From positions 62,001 through 126,000 of the forward strand of contig NZ_ML703269.1 in NCBI RefSeq assembly GCF_008520305.1: a stretch of 64,000 nt of DNA. The letters run 5' to 3'. Shown one piece after another: positions 3,075-64,000 of the stretch (the first letter of the stretch is position 1; each line of letters begins with the position of its first letter). Below the pieces are notes generated by a model. It was not told where the DNA came from, did not search any database, and worked only from the letters and a program-made list of their open reading frames with translations. This stretch comes from Mesorhizobium sp. SARCC-RB16n. GTDB lineage: Bacteria > Pseudomonadota > Alphaproteobacteria > Rhizobiales > Rhizobiaceae. A program made the position numbers and the translations under genes.

Positions 3075-3085
3075 CTTCTCTCCCC

Positions 3086-4276: not shown

Positions 4277-4398
4277 GCGCGAACTCCTCCGATCGTTTTG
4301 GATTATGGGAGGAAGTGTCGCGTCGGAAAGGCCGGCCAACAACACCTTGCCGGGTAAGTTCTTGGCCCGTGCGGGTGGCGTGCTCCTACCCGGTTGGC

Positions 4399-5130: not shown

Positions 5131-5460
5131 GACAATTCTGCCGCAATGGTGCAGGGGTGCTCTTTCCCCAGCGACATCAGCTGTCGCGCCGCAGGAAGCC
5201 GAAGGGCGCCCTTCTTTCGATGAAATCGAGAGTCCGTGCGCCCATGATAGCACGCATCGGCGAAGCCCCGACGTGAGCGGGCAAGCATGCGTTTGACCTG
5301 AAATTCCCGTGCGTTGGAAGAAGATGTTGCGAAGTTGAGGCGTTCCGGATCGCCATCGCTTTGTATGGGCGCCGGATCCGAAAACCGGTTTCCACTTTGC
5401 GGAATCATGGTCTAGACCTGATTTGCACCTTTTCCGGGATTCTGATGGCGGGAGGCGCTG
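5131..5460. other. Divergent intergenic region with a rhizobial-type repeat
   Basis: About 330 bases between the LuxR-type gene and mgtE with no credible gene. Bases 5366-5412 hold an imperfect inverted element (ATCCGAAAACCGG, then TTTCCACTTTGCGGAATCATG) of a type scattered through rhizobial intergenic regions. A GGAGG site at 5451-5455 serves the GTG start of mgtE. Promoters for both flanking genes should lie here, but no convincing -35/-10 pair was seen. Confidence 0.5.
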
Positions 5461-10318: not shown

Positions 10319-11488
10319 TCAGGGCAAAACCGCTGCGTGGCGCTCGCGCACCCAGTTGTGAAAGCGGTGCAAGTCATACTCCTCGGGCATCAGCACGCCG
10401 GCTGTATGGCGCATCGAGCGCAGGCCCCTCTGGTTGACCTCGCAAATCGCTGCATCCTCCTCCAGTACCTGTGTGCCGAAGGCGATGATGTTGTCGATAT
10501 CGGTCTCGGCGAGCGCCTCGGGCGCGAACAGCCACTCCGCGACAAGCTCCGTCTGTTCGGGACCGAGCGGCACCAGCCGGACAGTCCTGACATAGTCGAC
10601 ATGGCCGACGATGAACATCGAAGGCAAGCTGGTGGCGTAGGTCTGGCCGGCGATGCGTTCGGCTGGCGTCAGGTCCGGGAAGACCGGCCCATGCGTCTGG
10701 CCGTCGCGCGACCATGTCTCAGCCCCGGCGCGCAGGCCGCCGGAAAATTCCGGCGCGTCATTGTCGGCGTGGCGGAGCCATTCGGGATCGTCATGCCGGC
10801 TCATCAGGCCGCGGCCATAGATCGGCACCAGCCGCGACAGGTCCTTGTGGACGCCCGGGCAGTGCAGGCACTCGTTGAAGTTTTCCCAAAAGATTTTCCA
10901 GTTGCAGTTCATCACCTTGCGCAGCACATGGCCTGACACTAACGATTCGAGCGGCCAGTTGCCGAGGTTGCCGGAAGCGGGATCGAAGGAGGATTGCGCC
11001 GAGCCGGCAGCATCTTCGGCAAGATTGACGAAGACGAAGCCTCGCCACACCGAAAGGGCGACGCGATAAAGCGGGTGATCGGCCTTGTCGAAGCCGTCAG
11101 GCAGCGACTTCGATGGCACGCGCACAAGGTCGCCGCGCAGCGAATAGGACCAGGCGTGGTAGGGGCAGGTTATCAGCCGTGCTTTCAGCCGGCCCTCACT
11201 CTCCTGGCAAAGCTGCGAGCCGCGATGCCGGCACGTGTTGTGGAAGGCGCGCAACGCGCCGGTCTCGTCGCGCAGCACGATGATGTCCTGCGTGCCGATA
11301 CGGAATCGGCGGAAGGCCAGAGGCTGGGGAAGGTCGGCCTCGCGGCAGACGAGCAGCCAGCTTCTGTACCAGATGGCGTCGAGATCACGCTGATAGTTCT
11401 CATGGTCCCAATATGCCGATGAGGGCAGCGTCGGCTCGGTTCGGGTCAGGCCGTTATAGGGATCGCGCTCGCTGGCATTGGGCTGCAT
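10319..11488 (-). CDS. Rieske non-heme iron oxygenase, quaternary-amine (GbcA/CntA/Stc2-like) type
   Basis: A 389-residue oxygenase alpha subunit. The Rieske [2Fe-2S] ligands are C86 and H88 (CRHRG) and C108 and H111 (CPYH). The mononuclear iron site is in ENFNECLHCPGVH, with H209 and H214. The residue bridging the two centres is Glu (E206) rather than the Asp of aromatic dioxygenases. This is known for carnitine oxygenase CntA and relatives acting on quaternary amines. Glycine betaine, proline betaine or carnitine are therefore likelier substrates than aromatics. No ferredoxin/flavin reductase partner gene is nearby. The start at 11488 has AGGAAG; an alternative lies 11 codons upstream. It is monocistronic. 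Confidence 0.82.
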   Translation of the reverse strand: MQPNASERDPYNGLTRTEPTLPSSAYWDHENYQRDLDAIWYRSWLLVCREADLPQPLAFRRFRIGTQDIIVLRDETGALRAFHNTCRHRGSQLCQESEGRLKARLITCPYHAWSYSLRGDLVRVPSKSLPDGFDKADHPLYRVALSVWRGFVFVNLAEDAAGSAQSSFDPASGNLGNWPLESLVSGHVLRKVMNCNWKIFWENFNECLHCPGVHKDLSRLVPIYGRGLMSRHDDPEWLRHADNDAPEFSGGLRAGAETWSRDGQTHGPVFPDLTPAERIAGQTYATSLPSMFIVGHVDYVRTVRLVPLGPEQTELVAEWLFAPEALAETDIDNIIAFGTQVLEEDAAICEVNQRGLRSMRHTAGVLMPEEYDLHRFHNWVRERHAAVLP

Positions 11489-11639
11489 GGCTGGCTTCCT
11501 GTGAGGGTTGCCAGCCGACACCCGGCCAGGAAGTTTGTCAATCAGGACGGGATGGGAGCAGCCTTGCCGATGCGACGCTCCTGCGCTGCCGGCTGTCGGA
11601 ATTTGGTTTGCCGGGCGCGGCGAATTTCCCTATAGTCAC

Positions 11640-11853
11640 CAACGTCGTCGGTTCCTTTTTTGGGAGCCAAGAGGGAATGCGGTGCGGGCGAGGTTTCGCC
11701 CAATGCCGTGGCTGCCCCCGCAACTGTGTGCGGTAGTCCTCTCCATATGCCACTGAAGGTTTTCCTTCGGGAAGGTGGGGAAGGGCGCTTATCCGCGAGC
11801 CAGGAGACCTGCCGGCGACAGGAAACAGACTTCGATGCCCTCGGGTGGAGGGC
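11640..11853 (+). promoter_or_regulatory. Cobalamin (AdoCbl) riboswitch
   Basis: The leader of cbtB contains the B12 box GCCAGGAGACCTGCC at 11799-11813 and the conserved 5' block GAGGGAATGCGGTG at 11671-11684, with the expected intervening stems. After the aptamer, a GCCCTC/GAGGGC hairpin (11837-11853) ends two bases before the AAAGGA ribosome site (11855-11860). This suggests translational control of cbtB when cobalamin is bound. Boundaries are approximate. It should repress the cobalt transport and cobalamin genes downstream when the vitamin is plentiful. Confidence 0.93.
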
Positions 11854-24626: not shown

Positions 24627-27077
24627 CTACATCCTCGTCCGTTCCGCCTTCGGATCATACATCGGCTTCAGCGACGCCTCAGCCGCAAACCGCTCGCCGG
24701 CGATTTCGATCTCGTAGGTCGAGGCCAGCACATCTGCCTCGCTCTGTCCCTGGCAAGGCACATAGCCCAGCCCGATCGCGCCGCCGAGATGGTGCCCATA
24801 GTTGCCCGAAGTGATCGGACCAACGATCTTGCCGTCGCGCAGGATTGCCTCGTTGTGGAAGAGCAATGGCTGCGGATCCTTCAAGCGGAATTGGACCAGA
24901 CGGCGGTTCAATCCGGCTTCCTTCTTCTTCAGTACGGCATCGCGGCCGATGAAATCCCCCTTGCCCGTCTTCACTGCGAAGCCGAGGCCAGCTTCCAGCA
25001 CGTTGTCCTCATCTGTGATGTCATGGCCGAAATGGCGGAAGGCCTTTTCGATGCGGCAGGAATCCAGTGTGTGCAGACCGCAAAGTTTCAGGCCGACATC
25101 GGCGCCGGCCTCTGCGATGGCCTCGAAGACGTGCGCCGCCTGGTCGGTCGAGACATAAAGCTCCCAGCCGAGTTCGCCGACATAGGTGACGCGGTGGGCC
25201 CGGGCGAGGCCCATGCCGATCTCGATTTCCTGGAATGTGCCGAACGGATTGTTCTCGTTGGAGAAGTCGTTGGGGCTGACCTTCTGGATCAGTTTTCGTG
25301 CATCCGGGCCCATCAGGCAAAGCACGCTTTCAGCTGCGGTTACGTCCGTGATGACGACGAACTGCTCGCCGACATGCCGGCGCAGCCAGGCCAGGTCGCG
25401 CTGCAGCGTGGCGCCCGGCACGACGAGAAAGTAGGCGGTCTCCGAAAGCCGGGAGACGGTTAGGTCGCTTTCGATGCCGCCGCGCTGGTTGAGCATTTGC
25501 GTGTAGACGATCTTGCCCGGCGCCACGTCCATATCGTTGGCGCAGAGCCTTTGCAGGAAGGCGCAGGCGTCGCGGCCCTCGACACGGATCTTGCCGAACG
25601 AGGTCATGTCGAACAGGCCGACCTTGTTGCGGACGGCCAGATGCTCGTCCCGCTGGTTGTCGAACCAGTTCTGCCGCTTCCAGGAATAGCGGTATTCACG
25701 CTCCTGGCCTTCGCGCGCGAACCAGTTGGCGCGCTCCCAGCCGGCGACTTCGCCGAACACGGCGCCACGCGCCTTCAGATGTTCGTGCAGGGGCGAGCGG
25801 CGAACGCCCCGCGAGGTTGCCATCTGGCGATAGGGGAAGTGGTCGGCATAGAGCAGGCCGAGCGTTTCGGAAACGCGCTCCTTGAGATAGCGGCGGTTCT
25901 TCTGGAACGGCTGGGTGCGGCGGATGTCGACTTCCCAGAGGTCGAACGGCGCTTCGCCATCGTTGATCCACTGCGCCAGCGCCATGCCGGCGCCGCCGGA
26001 CGAGACGATACCGATCGAATTGTAGCCCGTCGCCATCCAATAACCGCGCAGCTCCGGGGCCTCGCCAAGATAGTAGCGGTCGTCGGGGGTGAAACTTTCG
26101 GGTCCGTTGAAGAAAGTGTGGATGCCGGCGGTGGCCAGCATCGGCATGCGGTTGACGCCCATTTCGAGGATTGGCTCGAAATGGTCCATGTCCTCCGGCA
26201 ACTGGTCGAAGCAGAAATCCTCGCGGATGCCGTCCATGCCCCATGGTTTGGCCACCGGTTCGAAGGCACCGAGCATCATCTTGCCGGCGTCTTCCTTGTA
26301 GTAGGCGCATTCGTCCGGCACGCGCAGCACAGGCAGGCGGCCGAGGCCGGGGATCGGCTCGGTGACGAGATAGAAATGCTCGCAAGCGTGCAGCGGGATG
26401 TTCACGCCGGTCTGTGCGCCGAGGTCGCGCGCCCACATGCCGGCGCAGTTGATGACGATGTCGGCCTCGATCGTGCCTTGGCCTTCTCCTTGCGCCCAGG
26501 ACACGCCGGAGACGCGGCCATTTTTCGTATGGACCTTTGTGACCTTCACATTCTCGACGATGGTGGCACCACGCTGGCGCGCACCCTTGGCCAATGCCAT
26601 GGCGATGTTGGCGGGATCACACTGGCCGTCGAGCGGCAGGTGCACGGCGCCGACCACATCCGAAACGTTCAGATGCGGATACATCTCTTTGACTTCGTTG
26701 GGCGAAATCTCGCGCACATCGACGTCGAAGGCGCGGGCGAGCGAGGCCTGCCTGTAGATCTCGTGCTTGCGCTCTTCGGTCAGCGCGACGGTGATCGAGC
26801 CGACCTGGCGCACGCCAGTGCCGACTTCGGTCTCGGCTTCCAGCTTGACGTACAGGTCGGCCGAATATTTCGCCAGCCGTGTCATGTTCTGCGAACCGCG
26901 CAGCTGGCCGATCAGCCCGGCGGCATGCCATGTTGTGCCCGAGGTCAGCTGCTTGCGCTCCAAAAGCACGATGTCGGTCCAGCCGAGTTTGGCCAGGTGA
27001 TAAGCGACCGAGCAGCCGGAGACGCCGCCGCCGATGATGACGGCCCGCGCTTTGGTGGGAATGGTCCTGGCGGTCAT
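24627..27077 (-). CDS. Dimethylglycine dehydrogenase-like flavoprotein with GcvT domain (copy 1)
   Basis: An 816-residue fusion. An N-terminal FAD-binding DAO domain ([23 protein letters not shown]) has GTTWHAAGL with H51, equivalent to the His that binds FAD covalently in mammalian DMGDH. A middle FAO_M-type domain follows, then GcvT and GcvT_C domains from about 440 that bind tetrahydrofolate ([32 protein letters not shown]). The family demethylates dimethylglycine or sarcosine and passes the C1 unit to THF. It is the last gene of the overlapping minus-strand operon, with a four-base overlap to the aminotransferase gene. The exact N-methyl substrate is not determined. Confidence 0.85.
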
Positions 27078-28255
27078 GCGGCCTCGCGGCGATAGCTGGA
27101 AACAAAACGGCGCAGCCGGGCGGCTGCTTCCCTAAGCACGGGTTCGGGCTGGCAAAGGCTGATGCGGATATGGCCGGCCGCGGCCTCGCCGAAGCTGGAG
27201 CCGGGCATGACGCCGACCTTCTCCTTGTCGAGGAAGGCGAAGGCGAATTTCTCGTCGTCGGGTTCGATATCCGATATGTCGAGCATGACATACATGCCGC
27301 CTTCGGAGCCGCGCACGGTGACATCGTTCATGCCGCGCACCGCATCCAGCAGGACGGTGCGGCGCGCCGCGTAGCGTTCGGCGATGTCCTTGACGCCATA
27401 GTGCTGCTCCAGCGCTTCGGCGCAAGCGATCGAGATGAAGGCCGGCAGGCCGTAGGTTGTTACCAGGTTGAGGTTGATCAGCAGCGTGATCATCTCCTCG
27501 GGACCGGTCAGCCAACCCATGCGCCAGCCGGTCATGCCGTGGCTCTTGGACATGGAATTGATGACCAGCGTACGCTCGGCCATGCCGGGCAGCGAACGTG
27601 GCGAGATGTGCTCGCCGCCGCCCAGTGTCCAATAGACCTCGTCCGAAAGCAGCCAGAGATCGTGCTCGCGGCAGATTTCGGCCAGCTGTTCCAGCCGCTC
27701 GCGCGAATAGACAGCACCGGTCGGGTTGTTCGGGGTGTTGATCAAGATGGCGCGAGTGTTGGGCTTGAGTGCCGCAAGGATCATGTCGGCGCGGGGTTGG
27801 AAGCCATCCTCGGCTGGTGTCTCGACGACGGTGAAACTGGCACCCGCCGCACTGAAGGTGTTTGGGTAGGTGGCATAGTAGGGGGCGACGACGATGGCGT
27901 GGTCGCCCGGGTCGAGAACAGCTTGCACGGCCGCGTAAAGCGCGGCCTGGCCGCCTGGCGTGGCGATGACCTCTTCCGGCATGGTCTCGACCCCGGTGCA
28001 GGCGCTTGAGGCCGCCGCCATCGCCTTGCGCAGACGCGGCAGGCCGGGCAGCGGCGTGTAATGATGGTTGCTGCCGCGAACTGCCGCGACGCAGGCTTCG
28101 ATCGTTTCCGACGGCGTGTCGAAATCATGGTCGCCGACCGAAAGCATGATGATGTCCTCGCCGGCTTCCTTGCGGTTCCAGGCGGCGAAATGAACCTCCC
28201 AGCCATCCTTGCCCGAAGGCACGATGCCGGTGATGCGCGATGATGGTTTAGGCAT
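27074..28255 (-). CDS. Class I/II pyridoxal-phosphate aminotransferase
   Basis: A 393-residue fold-type I aminotransferase of the aspartate-aminotransferase-like class. [13 protein letters not shown] and [10 protein letters not shown] contact PLP, and the Schiff-base lysine is K237 in [18 protein letters not shown]. The C-terminal Arg in GHIRISLCQ binds the substrate carboxylate. It overlaps both neighbours (four bases with the downstream flavoprotein gene, eight with the upstream methyltransferase gene). In this operon it may transaminate the demethylated amino acid product. The amino acid cannot be named from sequence. Confidence 0.85.
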
Positions 28256-29153
28256 GCAAGACTCCCGAGATCGTGTAGCCGTCCTGTTGCAGCCGGTCGC
28301 GCAAGGCGGCGATATGGGCCGGACCGACCTCGCAGCAACCGCCGACTATGTCCGCACCCGCTTCCACCCAGCCGACAGCCTGTTCGGCATAAGCATCTGG
28401 ACCGAGGTCGTGGCGGGCATGCAGTACATCCACCGTGCCGCCATGCTTGAGCGCTTGGGTGGAGGTGAAGCCGTTGGCATAGGCGCCGACCGGGCCACCG
28501 AGCTCGATCAGCTCCGGCAAGGCCGCCGCGATCGCTTCCGGGCGGCAGCAGTTGAGCAGCCGCGCCGCCACCGGCATATCCCCGAGCGCCTCCGCTGCCG
28601 CCGCAATCTTCTCCCCACTGCGCAAGCGCGGCGTGCCGTGATCGGCCAGCGTCCATGACACCCAGACGGGCTTGCCGCTTTCCGATGCGGCGGTGACCGC
28701 CGCGCGCGCTTCCTCCGCCGACGCCATGGTCTCGCACAGGAACAGGTCGACGCCGTCGGCCTGCTCGGCGACGATGCGGCGGTAGATGTCGAGCGCGTCC
28801 TGGTAGGAGATGGTCAGCGCTGGCGCGTAGCTGCCGAAAAGCGGCGACAGGCAGCCGGCGATCGCCGCGTCGCCGGCCTCACCGCGCGCTTGCCTGGCGA
28901 GGTCGATGCCGCGCTTCTGCAACGGCTTGAACAGATCTTCCGCGCCCTCGCGCGCCAGGCGTTCCGGCGTCGCCGAATAGGTGTTTATGGTGATGACGCG
29001 GGCGCCGGCGCGGATGAATTCGGCATGCAGGCCGCGCACGAGGTCCGGCTCGTCGATCAGCACCCTGGCCGACCACAGCGGCGTCGGCTCGGAGTTGCCG
29101 CGCCGGACCAGCTCCTGGCCCATGCCCCCATCGGTGAGGATAACCGGCTTCAT
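28248..29153 (-). CDS. Homocysteine S-methyltransferase-family protein
   Basis: A 301-residue zinc enzyme of the Pfam S-methyl_trans family. The N-terminus ILTDGGMGQELVRRG and the zinc cysteines (C202/C203 in LLNCCRPEA and C273/C274 in GGCCEVGP) are all present. The family moves a methyl group from betaine, S-methylmethionine or a similar donor to homocysteine. Between two DMGDH-like genes, a betaine-type donor yielding dimethylglycine would make a linear pathway. This is inference. The start at 29153 overlaps the stop of the upstream flavoprotein gene by four bases; ten extra upstream codons are open but lie inside that gene. Confidence 0.83.
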   Translation of the reverse strand: MKPVILTDGGMGQELVRRGNSEPTPLWSARVLIDEPDLVRGLHAEFIRAGARVITINTYSATPERLAREGAEDLFKPLQKRGIDLARQARGEAGDAAIAGCLSPLFGSYAPALTISYQDALDIYRRIVAEQADGVDLFLCETMASAEEARAAVTAASESGKPVWVSWTLADHGTPRLRSGEKIAAAAEALGDMPVAARLLNCCRPEAIAAALPELIELGGPVGAYANGFTSTQALKHGGTVDVLHARHDLGPDAYAEQAVGWVEAGADIVGGCCEVGPAHIAALRDRLQQDGYTISGVLHA

Positions 29154-31603
29154 GCTCGCAGCCTTTCGTTCCTGGGATCCCATAAGGGCTCGTCCTGCTG
29201 CACGACCGCCTTGAAGCGGTCGCCGAAGATCTCGACCTCGATGGCGGTGCCGGGCTCGGTCAGGTCGGCGCGCAGCATGCCGAGCGCGATCGATTTGTCG
29301 ATGCGATGGCCCCAGCCTCCCGATGTCGTCTCACCGACGATCTGGCCGTCATGCCACAGCGTCGACATGTAAGGTGCGTCGCAGTCGCCGGGATTTTCGA
29401 CCACCAGCGTGACGAAACGCTTCTTCACGCCTTGCTGTTTCTCGTTCTGGAGCGCCGTCTTGCCACGAAAGTCGGGCTTTTCCCATTTGACGAAGCGCTC
29501 GAGCCCGCCCTGCAGGATCGAGTAGTCCGTCGACAGGTCGCCCTTCCAGGTGCGGTAGCCTTTTTCCAGGCGCAGCGAATCCAGCGCGTACATGCCGAAC
29601 GGCCTCAGCCCGTGATTCTGCCCGGCGGCGCAGATCGCATCGAAGATCGCGGCGGTGTCGTCGACCCTGGTGTGGATCTCCCAGCCGAGCTCGCCGGCGA
29701 AGGACACGCGGACCAGCTTGGCCCAACGGCCCGCAATCCGGGTCTCCTGATGCGTCAGCCACGGCAAGGCCAGGTCGGCCTCACAGACATCGGCAAGAAT
29801 CTTTCGCGAATTGGGACCAGCGAGGATCTGCGTGGAGAATTCCTCTGTCCGGTCGATCAGCTTGAACTCTGCATTCCCGGGCATGTGCGACTTCAGCCAT
29901 TCGAAGTCATGCCATTGCGCCACCGCCGCGGTAATCAGCGTCATGGACTCCTCGCCATGCCGCACCACCGACATTTCGGTGACGATGCGGCCCTTGTCGT
30001 CGGAGAAATAGACGAGGCCGATGCGGCCGGGCTTCGGCACCAGGCCGGTCACCTGCCGGCTCAACCATTCGGCGGCCCCAGGGCCCTCGAGGTTGAAGCG
30101 CGAGAAGCCGGGCAGGTCGAGGATGCCGGCGGCGTCGCGCACGGCCAGGCACTCTTCGCGGACGCGCTGCTGCCAGGGCCCGTCGCGGCGGAAGGTCAGC
30201 GTGGCTTCCTCGGAGATGTCGTCGCCGTCCTGCGCGTACCAGGTGGCGCGTTCCCAGCCATTATAGGCATCGAAGCGGGCGCCGAAGGCCTTGATGCGAT
30301 CGTGGATCGGCGACAGTTTCCTGTCACGCCCTTCCGGCCAGGCGTGACGCGGGAACTGGATGGCGTATTCATTGCCATAGATTTCCATGCCCTTGGCGAC
30401 GCAATAGTCCGGCGCGGAAGCAAAGGAGGTGAAGCGGCGCGGGTCGCAGGACCACATGTCCCATTCGGTCTGGCCTTGTGTCACCCATTCGGCCAGCACC
30501 TTGCCGGCGCCGCCGCCCTGGGCGATGCCGAAGGTGAAGACGCAAGCCTCGAAGGCATTGGGAACGCCGGGCATCGGCCCGATCAGCGGATTGCCGTCCG
30601 GCGCATAGGGGATTGGGCCGTTGATGACCTTGGACAGGCCGGCAGTGCCGAGGATCGGGACGCGGGCGACCGCATCGGCCAGATAGTGCTCCAACCGGTC
30701 GAGATCGTCGGGGAAGAGCTGGAAGGAAAAGTCGTCCGGCATGGGATCGTTGTGGGTTGCCCAATGCGCGCGGCAATTGCGCTCATAGGGGCCAAGATTC
30801 ATGCCGGCCTTTTCCTGGCGCAAATAATATGAAGTGTCGACGTCGCGCAGCAGCGGCAGCTTCTTGCCCTGTTCCTTCGACCATGCGGCGAGTTCGGGGA
30901 TTTCCTCGAACAATATGTATTGGTGGCTCATCACCATCATCGGCACTTCGCGGCCGAACATCTTGCCGACTTCGGCGGCACGGTAGCCGGCTGCATTGAC
31001 GACGATCTCGCAGCGGATCTCGCCTTGCGCTGTTACGACCACCCACTCGTCGTTCTCGCGGCGCACGCCGGTAACGGGGCAGAAGCGGATAATCCTGGCA
31101 CCCATGTCGCGCGCGCCCTTGGCCAGCGCCTGCGTCAGCTGCGCAGGATCGATGTCGCCGTCGCTCGGATCGTAGAGCGCGCCCTTCAACTCATGCGTTT
31201 CGAGGAAGGGGTAACGGCTCTTGATCTCGTCGAGACCGACCACGTCTATGTCCATGCCTTGGTAGCGGCCCATGCCCTTGGCACGCTGGAATTCCTGCAT
31301 GCGCTCCTTTGTGTGGGCGAGCCTGAGCGAGCCGGTGACATGGTAGTTCATGGGATAGTCGACTGCGTCGGCGAGCCCACGATAGAGCTCGGTCGAATAG
31401 CGCTGCATGTTCATCAGCGACCAGGAGGAGGAGAAGGTCGGCACATTGCCGGCCGCATGCCAGGTCGAGCCCGAGGTCAGCTCGTTCTTTTCCAGGAGCA
31501 CGCAGTCGGTCCAGCCGGCCTTGGCCAGATGATAAAGCGAAGAGGTGCCGACCACGCCACCTCCGATGATCACCACGCGCGCCGTGCTCGGCAAACCCGC
31601 CAT
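29150..31603 (-). CDS. Dimethylglycine dehydrogenase-like flavoprotein with GcvT domain (copy 2)
   Basis: An 817-residue protein with the same architecture as the product of 24627-27077: FAD Rossmann segment RVVIIGGGVVGTSSLYHLAKAG, the covalent-flavin site GSTWHAAG (H49), a middle domain, and GcvT/GcvT_C domains from about 430 (SFAGELGWEIHTRV, YALDSLRLEKGYRTWKGDL). Copies 1 and 2 differ through most of the substrate domain, so they probably act on different N-methyl compounds or successive intermediates. It is the first structural gene of the operon. An XRE-cupin regulator gene is immediately upstream on the same strand. Confidence 0.85.
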   Translation of the reverse strand: MAGLPSTARVVIIGGGVVGTSSLYHLAKAGWTDCVLLEKNELTSGSTWHAAGNVPTFSSSWSLMNMQRYSTELYRGLADAVDYPMNYHVTGSLRLAHTKERMQEFQRAKGMGRYQGMDIDVVGLDEIKSRYPFLETHELKGALYDPSDGDIDPAQLTQALAKGARDMGARIIRFCPVTGVRRENDEWVVVTAQGEIRCEIVVNAAGYRAAEVGKMFGREVPMMVMSHQYILFEEIPELAAWSKEQGKKLPLLRDVDTSYYLRQEKAGMNLGPYERNCRAHWATHNDPMPDDFSFQLFPDDLDRLEHYLADAVARVPILGTAGLSKVINGPIPYAPDGNPLIGPMPGVPNAFEACVFTFGIAQGGGAGKVLAEWVTQGQTEWDMWSCDPRRFTSFASAPDYCVAKGMEIYGNEYAIQFPRHAWPEGRDRKLSPIHDRIKAFGARFDAYNGWERATWYAQDGDDISEEATLTFRRDGPWQQRVREECLAVRDAAGILDLPGFSRFNLEGPGAAEWLSRQVTGLVPKPGRIGLVYFSDDKGRIVTEMSVVRHGEESMTLITAAVAQWHDFEWLKSHMPGNAEFKLIDRTEEFSTQILAGPNSRKILADVCEADLALPWLTHQETRIAGRWAKLVRVSFAGELGWEIHTRVDDTAAIFDAICAAGQNHGLRPFGMYALDSLRLEKGYRTWKGDLSTDYSILQGGLERFVKWEKPDFRGKTALQNEKQQGVKKRFVTLVVENPGDCDAPYMSTLWHDGQIVGETTSGGWGHRIDKSIALGMLRADLTEPGTAIEVEIFGDRFKAVVQQDEPLWDPRNERLRA

Positions 31604-50563: not shown

Positions 50564-51577
50564 TCAGGCGGCCAGCAATTGCTTGCGGTCGACGCGCTCC
50601 TGCTGCGGCGAGCGGGCATAGAGCTCGCGGTAGCATTTGGAGAAATGCGAGGCGGAGACGAAGCCGCAGGCGACCGCGACCTCGACCACCGGCATCGACG
50701 ACTGGATCAAGAGATGGCGGGCGCGATCGAGGCGGATTTCGAGATAGTATCGGGCAGGAGAGCGTCCCATCTCGGTCCGGAACAGGCGCTCGATCTGGCG
50801 GCGCGACAGGTCGACATGGTCGGCGATCTCGATCAGCGATAGCGGCTCGGACAGGTTGGCCTCCATCAGCTCGATGATGGTCAGCACCTTCGAATTCTGC
50901 ACGCCGAGGCGAGCGCGCAGCGGCAGGCGCTGGCGGTCGGTCGGGCTGCGCACGCGGTCGGTCAGCACCTGCTCGCACACGCGGTTGACGAGATTCTCGT
51001 CGAAATCGTCGCCGATCAGCTTCAGCATCATGTCGAGCGCGGCGGTGCCGCCGGCGCAGGTATAGGTGTTCTGGTCGATCTCGAACAGGTCGGCAAAGAC
51101 ATTGGCCTTCGGGAAGGCCTCGGAAAAGCCCGGCAGGTTTTCCCAATGGATGGCGCAGCGCTTGTTCGACAATAGGCCAGCAGCGGCCAGGATATGCGCA
51201 CCGGTACACAGGCCACCCACCGCGACGCCGCGATTGTATTCCTCGCGCAGCCAGGCAAAGGCCGACTTGTTCTGGTAGCGCTCGACATTGATGCCGCTGC
51301 AGACGATGGCCATGTTAGGGCGATCCGGCCCAGCCATCTTCTTGCGTTCCTCTTCCAGCGAGGTGTTGACGGCACATTCGACGCCGTTGGAGGCGCGCAC
51401 CGGTTTCCCGTCGATGCTGGCAAGGCGCCAGCGATAGGCCTCATAGCCGAGCATCCGATTGGCGGAGCGCAGCGGGTCCAGCGCGGTCGCAAAAGCGATC
51501 ATGGTGAAATCGGGAACTAGGAAGAACACAAACGATCGCTTGATCGGATGCTTGACGGCGTTCACGGGGAACCTCAT
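50564..51577 (-). CDS. GlxA/GbdR/CdhR-type AraC-family regulator
   Basis: A 337-residue protein. An N-terminal DJ-1/PfpI-like ligand domain (about 14-195) has GVAVGGLCTGAHILAAAGLL with the conserved Cys (C124) and CAIHWENLPGFSEAFP. A C-terminal AraC HTH domain (about 230-330) contains LIEIADHVDLSRRQIERLFRTEMGRSPARYYLEIRLDRARHLL. This is the architecture of GbdR and CdhR, which activate glycine betaine and carnitine catabolism in Pseudomonas. Similarity runs through the whole length, but which ligand is sensed here is not shown. The start at 51577 has a weak ribosome site. A perfect palindrome TTTGCGAC-ATGG-GTCGCAAA lies about 100 bases upstream. Confidence 0.87.
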   Translation of the reverse strand: MRFPVNAVKHPIKRSFVFFLVPDFTMIAFATALDPLRSANRMLGYEAYRWRLASIDGKPVRASNGVECAVNTSLEEERKKMAGPDRPNMAIVCSGINVERYQNKSAFAWLREEYNRGVAVGGLCTGAHILAAAGLLSNKRCAIHWENLPGFSEAFPKANVFADLFEIDQNTYTCAGGTAALDMMLKLIGDDFDENLVNRVCEQVLTDRVRSPTDRQRLPLRARLGVQNSKVLTIIELMEANLSEPLSLIEIADHVDLSRRQIERLFRTEMGRSPARYYLEIRLDRARHLLIQSSMPVVEVAVACGFVSASHFSKCYRELYARSPQQERVDRKQLLAA

Positions 51578-51671
51578 CTGGCCATGACGCGAACAGGATG
51601 TCGCGAATAGCATAGCGTCATCAGGAAAAATCATTCCTGTCAATCGGCTAGGCGGCTTTAGCAAGATTAAA

Positions 51672-55653: not shown

Positions 55654-57723
55654 CTATTCGCGCCCGCGCCTTGCCGCGTGGCCTTCGCGCGAGCGCCGGC
55701 GGGGTGCAGCGTCGCCGGCGATGCCATCCTCGCTCACCGTCTTGCGTGGCGGCAGTTTTACCGCCGCCGACAGTTTCGGGAACGGATCGACTTTGTTGGG
55801 CAGCGCCATGGCATAGACGAAATGCTCCTGGAATTTCGGTTCCAGCGCCGTTTCGATCTTCTCGATCTGGCTCACCGTCTCCTCGATCTCGCGGCGATAG
55901 CCACGGTTGAGCAGCGCCATGCGAGCGCCGGCGCCGGCGGCGTTGCCGACGGCCGAGACCTTGTCGAGATCGCAATCGGGGATAAGGCCGAGCACCATGG
56001 CGTATTTCGGATCGATGAAGGAGCCGAAGGCACCCGCGAAATGGATGCGGTCGACATGTTCGGTGTTCTGCTTTTCCATCAACAGCTTGGTGCCGGCATA
56101 TAGCGCCGCCTTGGCGAGCTGGATAGCACGCACATCGGTCTGGGTGATTGTAATCTTGGGTTCGCCTTCCTTCAGCACGTAGGAGAAGGTGCGGCCGTTG
56201 GCGACGACGCGCGGCGAGCGCGCGGCAAGCGATCCGTCGACGACGCCATCTTCCGAGATGATGCCGGCGAGATACATTTCGGCGACGATTTCGATAATGC
56301 CGGAGCCGCAGATGCCGGTGACGCCGGTCGCCTGTACGCTGTCGAGGAAGCCGGGTTCGTCGGACCACAGTTCCGAGCCGATGACGCGGTATTTCGGCTC
56401 CAGCGTGTCGGGATCGATGCGCACGCGCTCGATGGCGCCGGGCGCGGCGCGTTGGCCACCGGAGATTTCGGCGCCTTCGAAGGCAGGACCAGTGGGCGAG
56501 GAGGCGGCGACAACACGCGCCCGATTGCCGAGCACGATCTCGGCATTGGTGCCGACATCGACGATCAACATCATCTCGTCCTGGCGATGCGGGCCTTCCG
56601 ACAGCGTCACCGCCGCCGCGTCGGCGCCGACATGGCCGGCAATGCAAGGCAGCATATAGAGCCGTGCGCCCTGGTTGAGCTTGAGCCCGATGTCGGATGC
56701 CTTGATGCGAACGGCGCCCGAGACGGCAAGCGCGAAGGGGGCTCCGCCGAGCTCGGTCGGATCGATGCCGAGGAACAGGTGGTGCATGATCGGATTGCCG
56801 ACGAAGACCGAATCCAGGATGTCGTTGCGCTGGACATTGCCTTCCGCGCAGACCTTGTCGACGAGGCCGGAGATCGCCTCGCGGACAGCGACCGTCATTC
56901 CCTCGCGGCCATCCGGGTTCATCATCACATAGGAGACGCGGCTCATCAGATCCTCGCCGAAGCGGATCTGCGGGTTCGACGTTCCGGAAGAGGCGGCGAC
57001 CCGGCCCGACAGCAGCGACACCAGGTGCATGGCGATGGTGGTCGAGCCGATGTCGCAGGCGAGGCCATAGGCCTCGTTCTTGAGGCCCGGCCACAGCGCG
57101 ATGACGCGCGCGATGTCGCTGTCGGCGTCCTTGTGGATGGCGGCTGTCGCGGTCCAGTTGCCTTTGCGCAATATGCCTTGCACCTGCGGCAGCAGGTAGA
57201 AGTCGAATTCGAGGTTTTTAAAGCTCCAGTCCTTCATCAGCGCGATCTTGAGCCGGTCGAGATCGCCTGATGGATTGTGCATGTCGGGCTCTTCGATCTC
57301 GACATAGCACATACGAATCGCCGTATCGCGGGCGATCACCCTTGTGTCGGCATCCTTGCGGATGGTCTGTGCATTGATGACGGTATCCTGCGGCACGTCG
57401 ATGACGAGATCGCCGAGGATCTGCGCCGAGCAGGAGAGGCGGCGCCGTTCGGGCAGGCCGCGGACGCGTTCGTAGCGCTCTTCCTTGGGGCCTTTGGGCG
57501 AGATGTGGTCGTTGGAGGAGGTGATCTTGTGCTTGGCGAAATTGCCTTCCTGCACCTCGATCTGGCAGCGCCCGCAAGTGGCACGTCCGCCGCACACGCT
57601 TTCGACATAGACGCCGAGTTGGCGCGCGGCGTCGAGCACTGGCGTGCCGACAGGGAACCGCCCGCGCTTGCCCGACGGCATGAACAGCACGAGCGGATCG
57701 GTAATGTTGGCAGGTGAATTCAC
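55654..57723 (-). CDS. RACo-type reductive activator of corrinoid proteins (2Fe-2S / ASKHA)
   Basis: A protein of about 689 residues. An N-terminal [2Fe-2S] domain has C44, C50, C53 and C98 (CGGRATCGRC ... LSCSA). A linker is followed by an ASKHA ATPase domain with GLACDIGSTTIAMHLVSLLSG, GNPIMHHLFLGIDP, IVDVGTNAEIVLG and a C-terminal HFAGAFGSFIDPKYAMVLG. These proteins use ATP to reduce Co(II) corrinoids back to Co(I). The last 20 residues are basic. The start is set at GTG 57723, ten bases after the methyltransferase stop. The frame continues upstream inside that gene, where no family homology is seen. It is last in the C1 operon. Confidence 0.87.
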   Translation of the reverse strand: MNSPANITDPLVLFMPSGKRGRFPVGTPVLDAARQLGVYVESVCGGRATCGRCQIEVQEGNFAKHKITSSNDHISPKGPKEERYERVRGLPERRRLSCSAQILGDLVIDVPQDTVINAQTIRKDADTRVIARDTAIRMCYVEIEEPDMHNPSGDLDRLKIALMKDWSFKNLEFDFYLLPQVQGILRKGNWTATAAIHKDADSDIARVIALWPGLKNEAYGLACDIGSTTIAMHLVSLLSGRVAASSGTSNPQIRFGEDLMSRVSYVMMNPDGREGMTVAVREAISGLVDKVCAEGNVQRNDILDSVFVGNPIMHHLFLGIDPTELGGAPFALAVSGAVRIKASDIGLKLNQGARLYMLPCIAGHVGADAAAVTLSEGPHRQDEMMLIVDVGTNAEIVLGNRARVVAASSPTGPAFEGAEISGGQRAAPGAIERVRIDPDTLEPKYRVIGSELWSDEPGFLDSVQATGVTGICGSGIIEIVAEMYLAGIISEDGVVDGSLAARSPRVVANGRTFSYVLKEGEPKITITQTDVRAIQLAKAALYAGTKLLMEKQNTEHVDRIHFAGAFGSFIDPKYAMVLGLIPDCDLDKVSAVGNAAGAGARMALLNRGYRREIEETVSQIEKIETALEPKFQEHFVYAMALPNKVDPFPKLSAAVKLPPRKTVSEDGIAGDAAPRRRSREGHAARRGRE

Positions 57724-57733
57724 GATTGCGCGC

Positions 57734-58708
57734 TTATCCCCGGCCCATGCGGGCTTCACGGCCGCCGCGCCGACGGCCGCCATTGCCGCCGCCTTCGCCC
57801 GGTGCATTGACCGCTGTCGGCGCCGCCACCGCGTGGCCGCCTTCGGCCGGCTTGTAATCCTTGTAGGTCTTGATCCATTTGGTGCAGTTCTCGTCGGTGC
57901 CGTTCAGCACGTTGGCGCCGCGCACGGCTTCCATCTCCTGCGGCCGCACCGGGTTCATGATCGCGGAGGTCATGCCAGCGCCGATCACCATCGGGATGAA
58001 GGCGGCGTTGATGCCATGGCGGTGTGGCAGGCCGAACGAGATATTAGACAGGCCGCAAGTGGTGTTGACCTTGAGTTCCTCACGCAGGCGCCGCAGCAGC
58101 GCGAACACCTGGCGGCCGGCATCGCCCAGCGCGCCGATCGGCATGACCAGCGGGTCGACGACGACGTCGTGCGCCGGAATGCCGAAATCGGCGCAGCGCT
58201 CGACGATCTTCTTGGCGACGGCAAAGCGCACGTCCGGATCCATCGAAATGCCGGTCTCGTCGTTGGAGATGGCGACGACCGGAACATTGTATTTCTTGAC
58301 CAGTGGCAGGATGGCCTCGAGTTTTTCTTCCTCGCCGGTGACGGAGTTGACCAGCGGGCGCCCCTTGGCGACCTTCAGCGCGGCCTCGATCGCGGCGGTG
58401 ACGGAACTATCGATCGACAGCGGCAAGTCGACCAGGCCCTGGACGATTTCCAGCGTCTGCACCAGCAGACCGGGTTCGGTCTCGTTCGGGTTGACCGAGG
58501 TGACGCCGGCATTGACGTCGAGCATTGTGGCGCCGCAGGCGGCCTGCTCCAGCGCGTCCTTGATGACGGTCTCGAAATTGCCAACCACCATCTCGGCAGC
58601 GAGCTTCTTGCGGCCGGTCGGGTTAATGCGTTCGCCAATCACGCAGAAGGGCTGGTCGAAGCCGATAATGATTTCTCGTGTCGCCGAGGCGACGATGGTC
58701 CGGGTCAT
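57734..58708 (-). CDS. Methyltetrahydrofolate:corrinoid methyltransferase (MtgA/AcsE/MetH-pterin-like)
   Basis: A 324-residue pterin-binding TIM barrel. The core reads CVIGERINPTGRKKLAAEM, GATMLDVNAGV, LPLSIDSSVTAAIEAAL, VNSVTGEEEKLEAIL, VVAISNDETGISMDPDVRF and TTCGLSNISFGLPHR. These are family hallmarks of the Pterin_bind enzymes that move a methyl group between a corrinoid protein and THF. A Gly/Arg-rich tail (about 295-324) is unusual. It starts with ATG 58708, preceded by GGAGAG. An inverted repeat GATATAAAG/CTTTATATC lies 17 to 38 bases upstream. It has no MetH activation or B12-binding domains, so it is not methionine synthase. Confidence 0.9.
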   Translation of the reverse strand: MTRTIVASATREIIIGFDQPFCVIGERINPTGRKKLAAEMVVGNFETVIKDALEQAACGATMLDVNAGVTSVNPNETEPGLLVQTLEIVQGLVDLPLSIDSSVTAAIEAALKVAKGRPLVNSVTGEEEKLEAILPLVKKYNVPVVAISNDETGISMDPDVRFAVAKKIVERCADFGIPAHDVVVDPLVMPIGALGDAGRQVFALLRRLREELKVNTTCGLSNISFGLPHRHGINAAFIPMVIGAGMTSAIMNPVRPQEMEAVRGANVLNGTDENCTKWIKTYKDYKPAEGGHAVAAPTAVNAPGEGGGNGGRRRGGREARMGRG

Positions 58709-58724
58709 GAAATCTCTCCGTCGT

Positions 58725-58746
58725 GATATAAAGAGTTCTTTATATC
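58725..58746. promoter_or_regulatory. Perfect inverted repeat GATATAAAG-N4-CTTTATATC
   Basis: Nine-base arms around AGTT in the 81-base gap between the MetF-like gene and the methyltransferase gene. The symmetry and AT content resemble operators of ArsR-type regulators of methionine/SAH metabolism (SahR-like), but this is inferred from shape only. It implies a second control point within the operon. Confidence 0.6.
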
Positions 58747-58789
58747 GTTATCTCTTGTCGATCAAGCGAATGGTGGTCGTTCCACGCTC

Positions 58790-59881
58790 TCAATGCGCGG
58801 TCTTCACCATATCCACCTGGGTTTCGGTAATCTCGTCGTGCAGGATGTGGTCCAGCCGATCGGCGACCATCTGGTCGTCGCGGCGGATCTCACGCTTCCA
58901 TGGCTGGCGGCCCTTCAGCACGCCCGATTCATCGACGATCTCGGCAACATATTCCTCCTGGCGGTAGGCCATCACGTGGATGCCAGAGACGCCGGGAATT
59001 TCCTTCACCTCGTTGATGATGTCGGTGCAGAGCTGCTTGCCTTCCTTCTTCTGGTCCTGGGCGCCTTCCAGCCGCTTGATGACGGCATCAGGAATATGGA
59101 TGCCCGGCACGTTGGAGCGGATCCATTTTGCCGTCTTGGCGGAAGCGAGCGGGCCGACGCCGCACAGGATGAACACCTTTTCGGTGTGGCCGAGATCGCG
59201 GGCCTTTTGCATGAAGGTTTTGAACATCGGCACGTCGAAGCAATACTGCGTCTGTATGAATTGCGCGCCGGCGGCGATCTTCTTGCCGAGGTGGATCGGG
59301 CGAAAGTCGAAGGGCGGCGCGAACGGATTGACGGCAGCGCCCAGGAACAGCTGCGGCGGCGTGGTCAGCTTCCGGCCGGACAGAAACTTGCCGTTGTCAC
59401 GCATGATGCGACAGGTCTCGAGCAGCGACATGGAATCGAGATCGAACACCGGCTTGGCGCCAGGCTGGTCGCCGGCCTGCACGCCGTCGCCGGTCAGGCA
59501 CAGCATGTTGGCGACGCCCATCGCGGCACCTCCCAGAACATCGCCCTGGATCGCGATGCGGTTCTTGTCGCGGCAGGCGATCTGCATGATCGGGGCGTAG
59601 CCCATGCGGGTCAGCAATGCGCAGATGCCAACCGACGACATGTGGCAATTGGCGCCGGACGCATCGACGGCGTTGATGGCGTCGACCCATCCGTCGAAGA
59701 TCTTCGCCCTGTTGTAGACGTCCTCGGGATCGGCGCTGTCGGGCGGATTGAGCTCGGTCGTCACCGCGAACTCGCCGCGCCTGAGCACCCGCTCCAGCCG
59801 GCCGCGTGAGGTGTGGCCGGGCAGGGGATCGAGCGGCAAATGGATGCCGGCCGGATTTTCGTCGAGCTGGCGGCCGATCAT
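58790..59881 (-). CDS. Methylenetetrahydrofolate reductase (MetF-like)
   Basis: A 363-residue MTHFR TIM-barrel protein. Marks are FAVTTELNPPDSADPEDVYNRA, AINAVDASGANCHMSSVGICALL, MQIACRDKNRIAIQGDVLGG, NMLCLTGDGVQAGD, FLGAAVNPFAPPFDFRPIHLGKKIAAGAQFIQTQYCFD. The length is larger than E. coli MetF and the N- and C-terminal ends are specific. It is coupled by a four-base overlap to the MetV-like gene, as in acetogens. In this operon it more plausibly oxidises 5-methyl-THF to methylene-THF than makes methionine, but direction is inference. The start is ATG 59881. Confidence 0.9.
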   Translation of the reverse strand: MIGRQLDENPAGIHLPLDPLPGHTSRGRLERVLRRGEFAVTTELNPPDSADPEDVYNRAKIFDGWVDAINAVDASGANCHMSSVGICALLTRMGYAPIMQIACRDKNRIAIQGDVLGGAAMGVANMLCLTGDGVQAGDQPGAKPVFDLDSMSLLETCRIMRDNGKFLSGRKLTTPPQLFLGAAVNPFAPPFDFRPIHLGKKIAAGAQFIQTQYCFDVPMFKTFMQKARDLGHTEKVFILCGVGPLASAKTAKWIRSNVPGIHIPDAVIKRLEGAQDQKKEGKQLCTDIINEVKEIPGVSGIHVMAYRQEEYVAEIVDESGVLKGRQPWKREIRRDDQMVADRLDHILHDEITETQVDMVKTAH

Positions 59882-60474
59882 GCAGAGGCTCCGGTCTTCG
59901 CTGCGGCGGCAGCTTCACGGGCTGCCGCGGCCTGCGCGGTCACCCGCAACCAGGCCGAGGTTTCGCGCAACGACTGATCGACCGGCTTCTGCACGGTGAG
60001 GATCCTGTCGGAGTTGACCATGTTCTGCGAACCTTCCCAGGCCTTGACCCAGACGCAGGGCATATTGGGCTCGACCTCGCAATTGCCGTTGGCGCGCACG
60101 CCGCCGCAAGGGCCGTTGCGCAACTGCTTGGGGCAGTTCATCGGGCACGACATGCCGGTCGAGGACAGGATGCACTGACCGCACATGCGGCAGTCGAACA
60201 TGAAGCCCTTGACGCGCTTTTCGACGAATTTGACCGGCGCCTCGACACGACCATAGCCGATGCCCTTCCACAAGGGATGCAGCAGCAGGAACGTGTCGGC
60301 AAAACGGGCATAAAACCATTCGAGCAGGCGCGAATGCCGGACAGACCATAACCTCACCGCAAACGAGCGCTGCACGCGGCGCTGCGGCGACACGTCGGCC
60401 GGCTTGTAGTCGGATTTCGGCGCTGCCTTCTTGACCAGCGTGGCCTGGGTAACCGCCGGGTTCTCGTCAGACAT
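59878..60474 (-). CDS. MetV-like methylenetetrahydrofolate reductase C-terminal/zinc-finger protein
   Basis: A 198-residue protein with cysteine cluster CRMCGQCILSSTGMSCPMNC (C95, C98, C101, C110, C114), then GPCGG (C123), C132 and C140. This is the MTHFR_C / MetV family, the partner subunit of MetF in bacteria that run methyl-branch C1 chemistry. The C-terminus is Ala-rich and probably helical. It overlaps MetF by four bases and the VF-family gene by eight, indicating one complex or coupled synthesis. The start at 60474 is the first ATG compatible with the family. Confidence 0.88.
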   Translation of the reverse strand: MSDENPAVTQATLVKKAAPKSDYKPADVSPQRRVQRSFAVRLWSVRHSRLLEWFYARFADTFLLLHPLWKGIGYGRVEAPVKFVEKRVKGFMFDCRMCGQCILSSTGMSCPMNCPKQLRNGPCGGVRANGNCEVEPNMPCVWVKAWEGSQNMVNSDRILTVQKPVDQSLRETSAWLRVTAQAAAAREAAAAAKTGASA

Positions 60475-60769
60475 TTTCTTTTCCGCCCGCCTTGACCAGA
60501 GCGACCAGCCGCTCGCGGTCGTATTTCGCGTCGAGTTCGTGGAACGCCTTTTCGACCTCGGATTCGAGATCGTCACCAACCGGAACGGGATCGGCCTTGC
60601 GCCATTCGGCGAGATAGTCGTCCGTGCCACCGGCGCCGGTGCGCATGGCGCACATGTCGATCGCCTCGGTGAAGCGCAACGGCAGTTCGCGCTTGGCGTT
60701 CTGCCGGCCTTTCCTGACGATGACCTGGGCAGGGATGTCGCGCCAGTAGACGACGATAAGATCGGCCAT
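60467..60769 (-). CDS. Small virulence-factor-family protein (PF13769-like)
   Basis: A 100-residue protein: DLIVVYWRDIPAQVIVRKGRQNAKRELPLRFTEAIDMCAMRTGAGGTDDYLAEWRKADP, then a helical Lys/Glu-rich end. It belongs to the conserved alphaproteobacterial virulence_fact family whose role is unknown. It is first in the MetV-MetF-methyltransferase-RACo operon, and the association looks functional. The start at 60769 has a weak ribosome site. A candidate operator lies about 126 bases upstream. Confidence 0.82.
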   Translation of the reverse strand: MADLIVVYWRDIPAQVIVRKGRQNAKRELPLRFTEAIDMCAMRTGAGGTDDYLAEWRKADPVPVGDDLESEVEKAFHELDAKYDRERLVALVKAGGKENV

Positions 60770-60971: not shown

Positions 60972-61754
60972 TTACCAGATGCCGGTTCTCAGCCCTGTCC
61001 AGACATAGGACCAGATCGTCGGGTGGTACCACTGTTTCGATGGCAGGCCTGGATCGAACGTTGCGAGTTTTCCGGCTAGCGCGTCGCTGACCGCCTCGAC
61101 GCAGATGTCGCGCGAAAACGCCACCTGGCGCAGCGCGTAGCTGGAGATGCTGTCGCCTTGTTTCGGCTTGCCGCGCGCCTGCTTCAGCACGCCGCCGGTG
61201 TCGACGCCCGCATCGACCAGATGGACGGTGGTGCCGAAATTCTGCGGATCGCCTGACGTCAACGCCCAATAGCCGCCATTCATGCCGCGATATTTCGGGG
61301 TGATGCCGGCATGATAGTTGAGCACCGGACAAGGTATTTTGCCGAGCATCTCCCTGGAAATCAGCCGGCAACCGTTGAGCAGCACGACGCCAGGTTTCAT
61401 CTTCTGGATCGCTTGCAGACATTCCTCGCTGTTGGCGGATGCCACATGGACGATGACCTGGCCTTGCCGCGGTTCCGTTTCAAGCTTCTCCTCGGCAATC
61501 AACCGGGCGGCATGTTTGACATAAAGCCGTTTTCCGAGCCTGCTCAGCACCATCGTGCCGAGCTGGCCCATGGCAGAGACCCAGCCCTGGCGTCGGGCGC
61601 GGCCGCGCAGCAATTGTTTTTTAGATTCAGGGATTTCGAGGATGACGCTGACAGGGCCGACGCGGTCGGTGAGGTCGTTGATCATGGCCCAGACGTGCGC
61701 GCCGCCACCGGTGACGACTACAATCGGTCGCGGATTGGATTTCGACGCTGCCAT
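60972..61754 (-). CDS. Formyltransferase-fold protein
   Basis: A 260-residue protein with the N10-formyl-THF-dependent transferase fold. PVLNYHAGITPKYRGMNGGYWALTSGD has the catalytic Asn and His, and TTVHLVDAGVDTGGVL contains the third catalytic residue Asp. It is unlike PurN or Fmt in length and ends. It could formylate a sugar or amine, or act in THF-linked C1 chemistry. Start ATG 61754; a GTG four codons earlier is also open. It is next to, but transcriptionally separate from, the C1 operon. Confidence 0.8.
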   Translation of the reverse strand: MAASKSNPRPIVVVTGGGAHVWAMINDLTDRVGPVSVILEIPESKKQLLRGRARRQGWVSAMGQLGTMVLSRLGKRLYVKHAARLIAEEKLETEPRQGQVIVHVASANSEECLQAIQKMKPGVVLLNGCRLISREMLGKIPCPVLNYHAGITPKYRGMNGGYWALTSGDPQNFGTTVHLVDAGVDTGGVLKQARGKPKQGDSISSYALRQVAFSRDICVEAVSDALAGKLATFDPGLPSKQWYHPTIWSYVWTGLRTGIW

Positions 61755-61843
61755 TGATCTTGCCACGCTCCAAGGACCGGCTGATGCGGCCGGACCTTAG
61801 GGCAGGCGGGTTAATCCTTGGTATGCCGGCATGATAGATCCGG

Positions 61844-63465: not shown

Positions 63466-64000
63466 TCAGGCGCTCGCGGCCGCACGCGCCAGGCCTGGCG
63501 TCAGGTCGCCAAACCCGGTCGAGCGACGCTCGTAGGTCAAGCCGAGCAGGGCGGCCGCCTTTTCCGCGACCTTGTCGAGCTCCGGATCATCGGTCTGCGC
63601 CAGATAGATCAGCTTCTCGTAATTGCCGAAATAGTCCTTGATCAGTTCCGGGTGCCTGTCCAGCCCGAGCGGCTTCATGAAGAAGGCATCGAACTGGCGG
63701 CACAGGAAGTCCGTCATGTAGAACGACATCATGTCGTCGTCGGCGACCTTCGCATAGGCGTCCATGCCTTGATAGAAGGCGAAGCAATGCGGGCCGGCCA
63801 TGCGCTCGACGCCATGCTTCTCCAGTACGCGGTCAAGCAAGCCGCCGGTACCGCAATCGGCATAGCCGACGAAGATATTGATGTAACCCTCCGCCTTGGC
63901 CTTCTCGATCGCCTTGTCCATGGCCGGTGCGATGCGGTCAGGATAGAAATGAAATTCCGCCGGCAAACACGTCAATTCGAGGTGATCCAGCCCGAGCCGT
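63466..64000 (-). CDS. DUF1638 protein, 5' end off window
   Basis: At least 178 codons read leftward from the right edge (RLGLDHLELTCLPAEFHFYPDRI at the edge side). KAEGYINIFVGYADCGTGGLLDRVLEKHGVERMAGPHCFAFYQG, with the conserved Cys in DCGTGG, and FGNYEKLIYLAQTDDPELDKVAEKAA are DUF1638 hallmarks. In other genomes DUF1638 genes sit with MttB-type methyltransferases and corrinoid proteins. It therefore probably belongs with the C1 operon even though an epimerase, a DUF4893 protein and a formyltransferase gene intervene. The apparent TTG start at 63975 is internal to the conserved region, so the gene continues past base 64000. Confidence 0.87.
   Translation of the reverse strand, partial: RLGLDHLELTCLPAEFHFYPDRIAPAMDKAIEKAKAEGYINIFVGYADCGTGGLLDRVLEKHGVERMAGPHCFAFYQGMDAYAKVADDDMMSFYMTDFLCRQFDAFFMKPLGLDRHPELIKDYFGNYEKLIYLAQTDDPELDKVAEKAAALLGLTYERRSTGFGDLTPGLARAAASA

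Follow-up and report, generated by a model that had tools for sequence, protein, structure and literature searches.

A minus-strand operon in a 64,000-nucleotide stretch of DNA from Mesorhizobium sp. SARCC-RB16n (contig NZ_ML703269.1, positions 62,001 to 126,000; the whole stretch is hereafter called the window) very probably encodes the folate half of an MtgBCD-type module for cobalamin-dependent demethylation, as found in aerobes. Its five genes, at 55654-60769, code for VF, a small protein of the PF13769 family, a MetV-like protein, a MetF-like methylene-tetrahydrofolate (methylene-THF) reductase, a methyl-THF:corrinoid methyltransferase (MTR, the counterpart of MtgD) and a corrinoid reductive activator of the RACo type. 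The module is recognized from gene content, linkage, co-occurrence and exchange of the reductase among related genomes, and its probable function is read by analogy with characterized systems. The corrinoid route for betaine was itself published in 2025; the new part is VF together with the swapped MetVF reductase.

The operon and its products

The five genes form open reading frames that run in one direction, and their products score above Pfam or NCBIfam cut-offs, which bears out the operon and the identities that an earlier note on this DNA had proposed. In order of transcription they are VF (60467..60769, 100 aa; Virulence_fact, PF13769, 93.3 bits), MetV (59878..60474; DUF5981/MetV-like, PF12225, 95.7 bits), MetF (58790..59881; MTHFR, PF02219, 106 bits), MTR (57734..58708; Pterin_bind, 97.5 bits) and RACo (55654..57807). 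MetV, whose start most likely lies at 60474, shares 8 bp with VF and 4 bp with MetF. It contains an NGPCGG motif and eight cysteines, and metV lies directly upstream of metF; these features are shared with the acetogen MetVF of Clostridium ljungdahlii (PMC8515935, PMC8760232), eight cysteines being enough for two [4Fe-4S] clusters, the binding of which is predicted for the Mesorhizobium protein. In contrast to the acetogens, the host here is an aerobic-type alphaproteobacterium whose relatives have a canonical MetF, and the reaction probably runs in the oxidative direction. MetFV-type reductases are described mainly from anaerobic bacteria (Yi et al., PMC8515935), and the presence of one beside such a module in an aerobic-type host, with an ordinary MetF also in its relatives, is unusual.

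MTR is a stand-alone pterin-domain enzyme that matches the NCBIfam model PRK07535 (methyl-THF:corrinoid/iron-sulfur protein methyltransferase) with 394.8 bits against a cut-off of 259. It differs from a classical MetH in matching the metH model over positions 326-592 only (121.8 of 1010.85 bits), and the Wood-Ljungdahl AcsE/AcsV cut-offs are reached neither by the methyltransferase (NF040758, 125.6 of 370 bits) nor by the activator (NF040756, 387.1 of 800 bits). The C-terminal, middle and linker domains of RACo are recovered by Pfam with 302.4, 162.8 and 92.5 bits, and its N-terminal [2Fe-2S]-type domain, with cysteines 72, 78, 81 and 126 in the numbering of the longest open reading frame, gives a modest Fer2 match (27.6 bits, cut-off 21). 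Residues 39-672, including this iron-sulfur domain, align with the RACo structure 3zyy (316.5 bits), which we take to be from Carboxydothermus; the likely partner of RACo here, as judged from linkage, would differ in being a corrinoid protein of the MtgC type. The true start of RACo is uncertain, with ATG codons at 57807, 57783 and 57681.

The DUF1638 gene that had been noticed at the right edge of the window (63466..64000, minus strand; PF07796, 81.3 bits) is cut at its 5' end by that edge. Neither sigma-70-type promoters, of which none was found between 53500 and 64000 (shuffled sequences averaged 2.0), nor structured RNAs mark the region: at the gathering level of Rfam the sole match in the 64-kb window is a distant cobalamin riboswitch, and six related loci yielded only a tRNA.

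Conserved gene neighborhoods beyond the window edge

Related loci were fetched by similarity to MTR (the best 80 of 566 confirmed matches), and 71 of them have full flanks. These 71 loci are close relatives in which MTR is present by construction, and absence of a gene in them means no blastp match at 60% query coverage; tblastn recovered DUF1638 in one such locus (L042) and part of MttB in another (L061). In the nearest compared relative, Mesorhizobium sp. WSM3626 (locus L001; 95.0% identical over 5.4 kb, MTR 99%), an MttB-family gene (2481-4118, minus strand; PF06253, 768.9 bits, open over 545 aa) and a corrinoid protein gene (4305-5042; B12-binding domains at 93.6 and 60.2 bits) are followed by a full copy of DUF1638 (5320-5961) and then by the genes of the window. 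The AlphaFold model of this DUF1638 copy (pLDDT 90.9) predicts a Rossmann-like alpha/beta protein, for which a fold search gave no confident match.

VF, MTR and RACo are each present in all 71 loci, the corrinoid protein in 70 (in one, L070, apparently as part of a canonical MetH), DUF1638 and MttB each in 68, MetV with MetF in 61 and a bmt/mtgE homologue (Bmt) in 11. The expectation that MttB-family and B12-binding genes would be met to the right of position 64000 thus holds in most relatives, and MttB and MtgC are predicted to lie beyond the window edge in the strain itself as well. Three components of the module, MTR, RACo and DUF1638, are seen in the window, and the corrinoid protein and MttB are linked to them in relatives. 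In Sinorhizobium meliloti CP090106 (named pSymB) the gene order is that of WSM3626 except for some small additional genes, bmt lies upstream, and the proteins are 49-90% identical to the window or WSM3626 copies, MTR being at the upper end with 90%.

A 234-aa cysteine-rich 'ferredoxin' is encoded beside mttB in S. meliloti CP090106 and in 62 of the 71 loci (e.g. L081, 9052-9756, and L001, 1705-2454). The L081 copy has no Pfam match, and the protein is a candidate electron donor for RACo.

Co-occurrence of the module genes

Six families were searched in one set of 240 alphaproteobacterial genomes, with a threshold of E<=1e-40 for MTR. The MttB family was found in 51 genomes, of which 46 have MTR and 49 RACo; over the whole set RACo occurs in 55, MTR in 46, VF in 45, DUF1638 in 43 and MetV in 21. 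MttB, MTR and RACo are found together in 46 of the 240, and MttB is present in every one of the 46 MTR-positive genomes. A search of the operon proteins as a set across alphaproteobacteria had been suggested earlier, and it ties VF closely to the module: VF is present in 42 of the 46 module genomes (DUF1638 in 39, MetV in 17) and in only 3 of the 194 others (G011, a fragment, G060 and G232), each of which shows parts of the module. The association of VF with MTR is strong (Fisher p=1.5e-38), a value that overstates independence given the kinship among the genomes and the many drafts. Linkage points the same way: on the same strand, 41 of 46 VF genes have one or more of DUF1638, MetV, RACo and MTR within 5 kb, and 28 of the 46 have DUF1638 no more than 500 bp away.

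Predicted function of the module

By analogy with characterized systems, an MttB-family enzyme would demethylate a quaternary amine, most likely glycine betaine, and load the methyl group onto the Co(I) of the small corrinoid protein MtgC, from which MTR would hand it to tetrahydrofolate. MetV-MetF would oxidize the resulting methyl-THF to methylene-THF, which would enter folate-linked one-carbon (C1) oxidation, while dimethylglycine might be finished by oxidases like those in the window. RACo, using ATP and its [2Fe-2S] domain, would re-reduce Co(II) cobalamin after accidental oxidation, and DUF1638 may assist this reactivation. With MtgE, a homocysteine-binding protein, MTR and the corrinoid protein could probably also run backwards to methionine.

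The closest described system is the MtgBCD(E) of Ruegeria pomeroyi and other aerobes (Mausz et al. 2025, PMC12478193), which has in common with the present one an MttB-family demethylase, a stand-alone corrinoid protein, a pterin-domain methyltransferase, a second MetF, a RamA/RACo-like activator and DUF1638. It differs in the MetV and MetF pair and the constant VF found here; the terms 'metV' and 'virulence' are absent from the main text of that report. Its mtgC and mtgD mutants are methionine auxotrophs that fail to grow on glycine betaine even with methionine, and in its proteomics MetF2 is the most induced protein, with RamA and DUF1638 also up, in agreement with the earlier proposal that the operon MetF runs oxidatively; the paper also lists S. 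meliloti as a bacterium in which the genes are colocalized (PMC12478193). In Mesorhizobium alhagi under salt, an mttB, not necessarily the linked paralogue, and fhs rise by log2 3.77 and 3.76 (about 13-fold) and the betaine transporter gene proX by log2 5.17 (PMC4302635). Of the second, oxygen-independent methyl route that the earlier note had suggested, the route is thus supported, while 'oxygen-independent' describes the chemistry only and carries no evidence for anaerobic growth. That note's reading was right for the most part, but the surprise of a corrinoid route in an aerobic host is smaller after the publication of 2025.

Several observations weigh against this assignment. The experiments come from other strains, and the M. 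alhagi mttB and fhs knockouts are without a salt phenotype (PMC4302635). The MttB and MtgC genes of the strain itself are placed by the synteny of relatives, and in two loci (L047 and L070) the VF-MetV-MetF-MTR-RACo block is present and a linked MttB or DUF1638 was not found. In a set of 14 control genomes, Bacillus subtilis has a match to PF13769 and none to the MttB (PF06253), RACo (PF14574) or DUF1638 (PF07796) families, and the reverse is seen in Methanosarcina acetivorans, which has all three and lacks PF13769; the association of VF with the module is therefore claimed for Pseudomonadota only, VF being no universal part of corrinoid systems. Finally, each relative has 4-7 MttB paralogues, so that the betaine enzyme may be a different one from the linked copy.

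The last point leads to the alternative that survives best, in which the mechanism is the same but the linked MttB acts mainly on another methylated amine, such as proline betaine, carnitine, gamma-butyrobetaine or trimethylamine, and glycine betaine falls to a paralogue or an oxygenase. We consider this variant, whose probability overlaps that given to the module as a whole, to be possible though on the doubtful side. Apart from the paralogues, it is favored by the nearest solved structure to the linked MttB, 4yyc (962.6 bits), being labelled merely 'putative trimethylamine methyltransferase', and by a Rieske oxygenase gene in the window (10319-11521, minus strand) for which GbcA is the best NCBIfam model. 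The Rieske match is far under the cut-off (166 bits against 670), and an assignment as GbcA was rejected on this ground. Lower in the list of structures, 2qne (418.1 bits) and 9yce ('glycine betaine methyltransferase', 417.0 bits) both outscore the trimethylamine enzyme 7xcl ('trimethylamine methyltransferase', 132.9 bits). The pyrrolysine-type trimethylamine methyltransferase MttB has an in-frame amber codon, and no internal stop was seen in 23 of the 23 listed PF06253 matches from four relatives. The window also contains a GbdR-like AraC-family regulator of the choline/betaine type (50564..51664, minus strand; GbdR model 370.6 bits, below the cut-off of 480), two DAO-GCV_T genes (dimethylglycine/sarcosine dehydrogenase-like) and sarcosine-oxidase-like genes, all of which speak for glycine betaine.

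VF and the exchangeable reductase

VF has a conserved core, WRDIP.Q ... RF..AID..AM ... YL..W, of which WRDIP.Q is strongly conserved across 41 distinct sequences that do not belong to the close set. Its AlphaFold model is confident (pLDDT 92.0), and a comparison with PDB gave no fold match at E<=0.001. The 'virulence factor' name of PF13769 was presumably taken from a staphylococcal gene. Among the literature matches listed, no paper linking PF13769 to corrinoid methyl transfer was recognized in the open-licence literature, subscription journals being mostly outside this scope.

The interval between VF and MTR was read in 50 stretches. Forty of these come from as many of the 45 alphaproteobacterial genomes with VF, and 10 are loci from a draw of 299 Pseudomonadota genomes, 28 of which have VF. 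The interval holds a single-subunit MetF-like gene in 16 stretches, MetV with MetF in 11 and nothing in 6, and is arranged otherwise in 4; the remaining 13 were left unclassified, VF or MTR not being found within the stretch. In all 10 Pseudomonadota loci a single-subunit MetF-like gene adjoins VF, and MTR is also present in 9. One such single-subunit protein (L128) matches the 5,10-methylenetetrahydrofolate reductase structure 7xg9 with 185 bits, and of four compared with the Pfam MTHFR family two pass the cut-off, one falls short of it and the fourth gives no match. Even in the close set, 10 of the 71 loci lack MetVF beside VF, four having a single-subunit MetF and six nothing. As the reductase varies between VF and MTR, VF goes with the corrinoid/folate core, around which the reductase is swapped. 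VF is thus likely to be a constant small partner of this core and not a MetVF-specific subunit.

The opposite view, that VF is a small third subunit of MetVF and that VF-MetV-MetF is an acetogen-like reductase gained as a block, would explain the 8-bp overlap of VF and metV in the window and the position of VF directly before metV in many loci. It is improbable given the 10 close loci in which VF stands without MetV and MetF, the excess of single-subunit MetF over the MetV-MetF pair in the 50 stretches, and the far wider occurrence of VF than of MetV in the module genomes. Returning to VF as a partner of the core, we tentatively suggest, at less than even confidence, that PF13769 proteins of Pseudomonadota are adaptors that dock MTR or methylated MtgC to the methyl-THF oxidase of the genome, be it MetVF or single-subunit MetF, and so steer the methyl group to oxidation over methionine.

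A second, canonical MetF (293-303 bits) is encoded elsewhere in four of four relatives examined, which would leave the operon MetF free for oxidation. We accordingly propose this second MTHFR paralogue as the methyl-THF oxidase of the module.

Methionine synthesis as an alternative

The weakest alternative, to which we give very little credence, is that the operon serves methionine synthesis only, with a split methionine synthase built from MTR, MtgC and an MtgE-like protein, maintained by RACo and DUF1638, and with MetVF working reductively to supply methyl-THF. A split methionine synthase of this kind is described in Phaeobacter inhibens, where homologues, DUF1638 included, are needed for methionine synthesis (Price et al. 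2018, PMC5764234), and which shares with the present system the corrinoid protein, the pterin methyltransferase, a RamA-like protein and DUF1638; the methionine role is assigned there, whereas here the linked genes include MttB and a second reductase. The linked bmt/mtgE homologues of 11 loci fit such a role, as does one relative (G003) that has no full-length MetH or Meth_synt_2 (MetE-type) match in the DNA examined, which is about as long as its chromosome and may miss plasmid genes, and retains the split parts; there methionine would have to come from the split enzyme, unless the genes lie outside that DNA. In the other three of the four relatives the operon is kept beside a full MetH (G002 and G004) or a MetE-type match (G001), which disfavors the methionine-only outcome that the earlier note had named as its possible refutation. 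Further evidence against it comes from the ordinary MetF of all four relatives, which is able to make methyl-THF, from the linkage of MttB in all but three of the 71 loci and its presence in every MTR-positive genome, and from the published failure of the Ruegeria mutants on betaine despite methionine (PMC12478193).

In Mesorhizobium ephedrae (L070, 3665-8110) the VF-MetV-MetF-MTR-RACo block is located near the apparent canonical metH.

Other genes in the window

Upstream of VF, across a gap of about 200 bp, and thus between it and DUF1638, lies a formyltransferase-family gene (60972..61766, minus strand; PF00551, 70 bits). Its position and the residues Asn150, His152 and Asp185, which we take to be the catalytic set, suggested a step from 10-formyl-THF to formate, a candidate that was rejected as part of the core and is regarded as accessory. 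The gene is found in 41 of the 71 loci, about 680 bp of it are missing in WSM3626 around position 7641 of that locus, and the 240 alphaproteobacterial genomes gave two matches at E<=1e-15, one the WSM3626 remnant itself and the other a partial match of 34%.

The demethylation genes that had been listed as context (sarcosine oxidase, dimethylglycine dehydrogenase (DMGDH)-like and Rieske) are indeed present in the window. The cobalamin riboswitch (11632-11830, plus strand; Rfam, 118.6 bits) lies about 44 kb from the operon and is followed, up to 16002, by a CbtA cobalt-transporter gene and then by cobO-like, cbiB-like and cobC/cobD-like genes. Together the demethylase-like and oxidase genes, the GbdR-like regulator and these riboswitch-headed cobalt/cobalamin genes fit a B12-using route from betaine to glycine. 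The GbdR-like gene is a possible regulator of the operon, to which it is linked by proximity only.

A possible separate demethylation cluster lies at 24627-31603 (minus strand), where an aminotransferase gene and a homocysteine S-methyltransferase-family gene (28248-29183) stand between two FAD-GcvT demethylase-like genes. The homocysteine S-methyltransferase-family gene was not counted as MtgE: its product is 31% identical to S. meliloti Bmt and gains 105 of the 338 bits required by the betaine-homocysteine methyltransferase model.

Implications

In the operon, the B12-dependent demethylation of betaine that was recently reported for aerobes appears among legume symbionts in the form of a compact cassette whose reductase is exchangeable, and the mis-named PF13769 family acquires a role that can be tested. 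If VF is an adaptor, its relatives in Firmicutes may likewise act in folate C1 metabolism. If confirmed, activity of MetVF alongside an ordinary MetF in an aerobic-type host would probe how far the type of enzyme is tied to anaerobic life.

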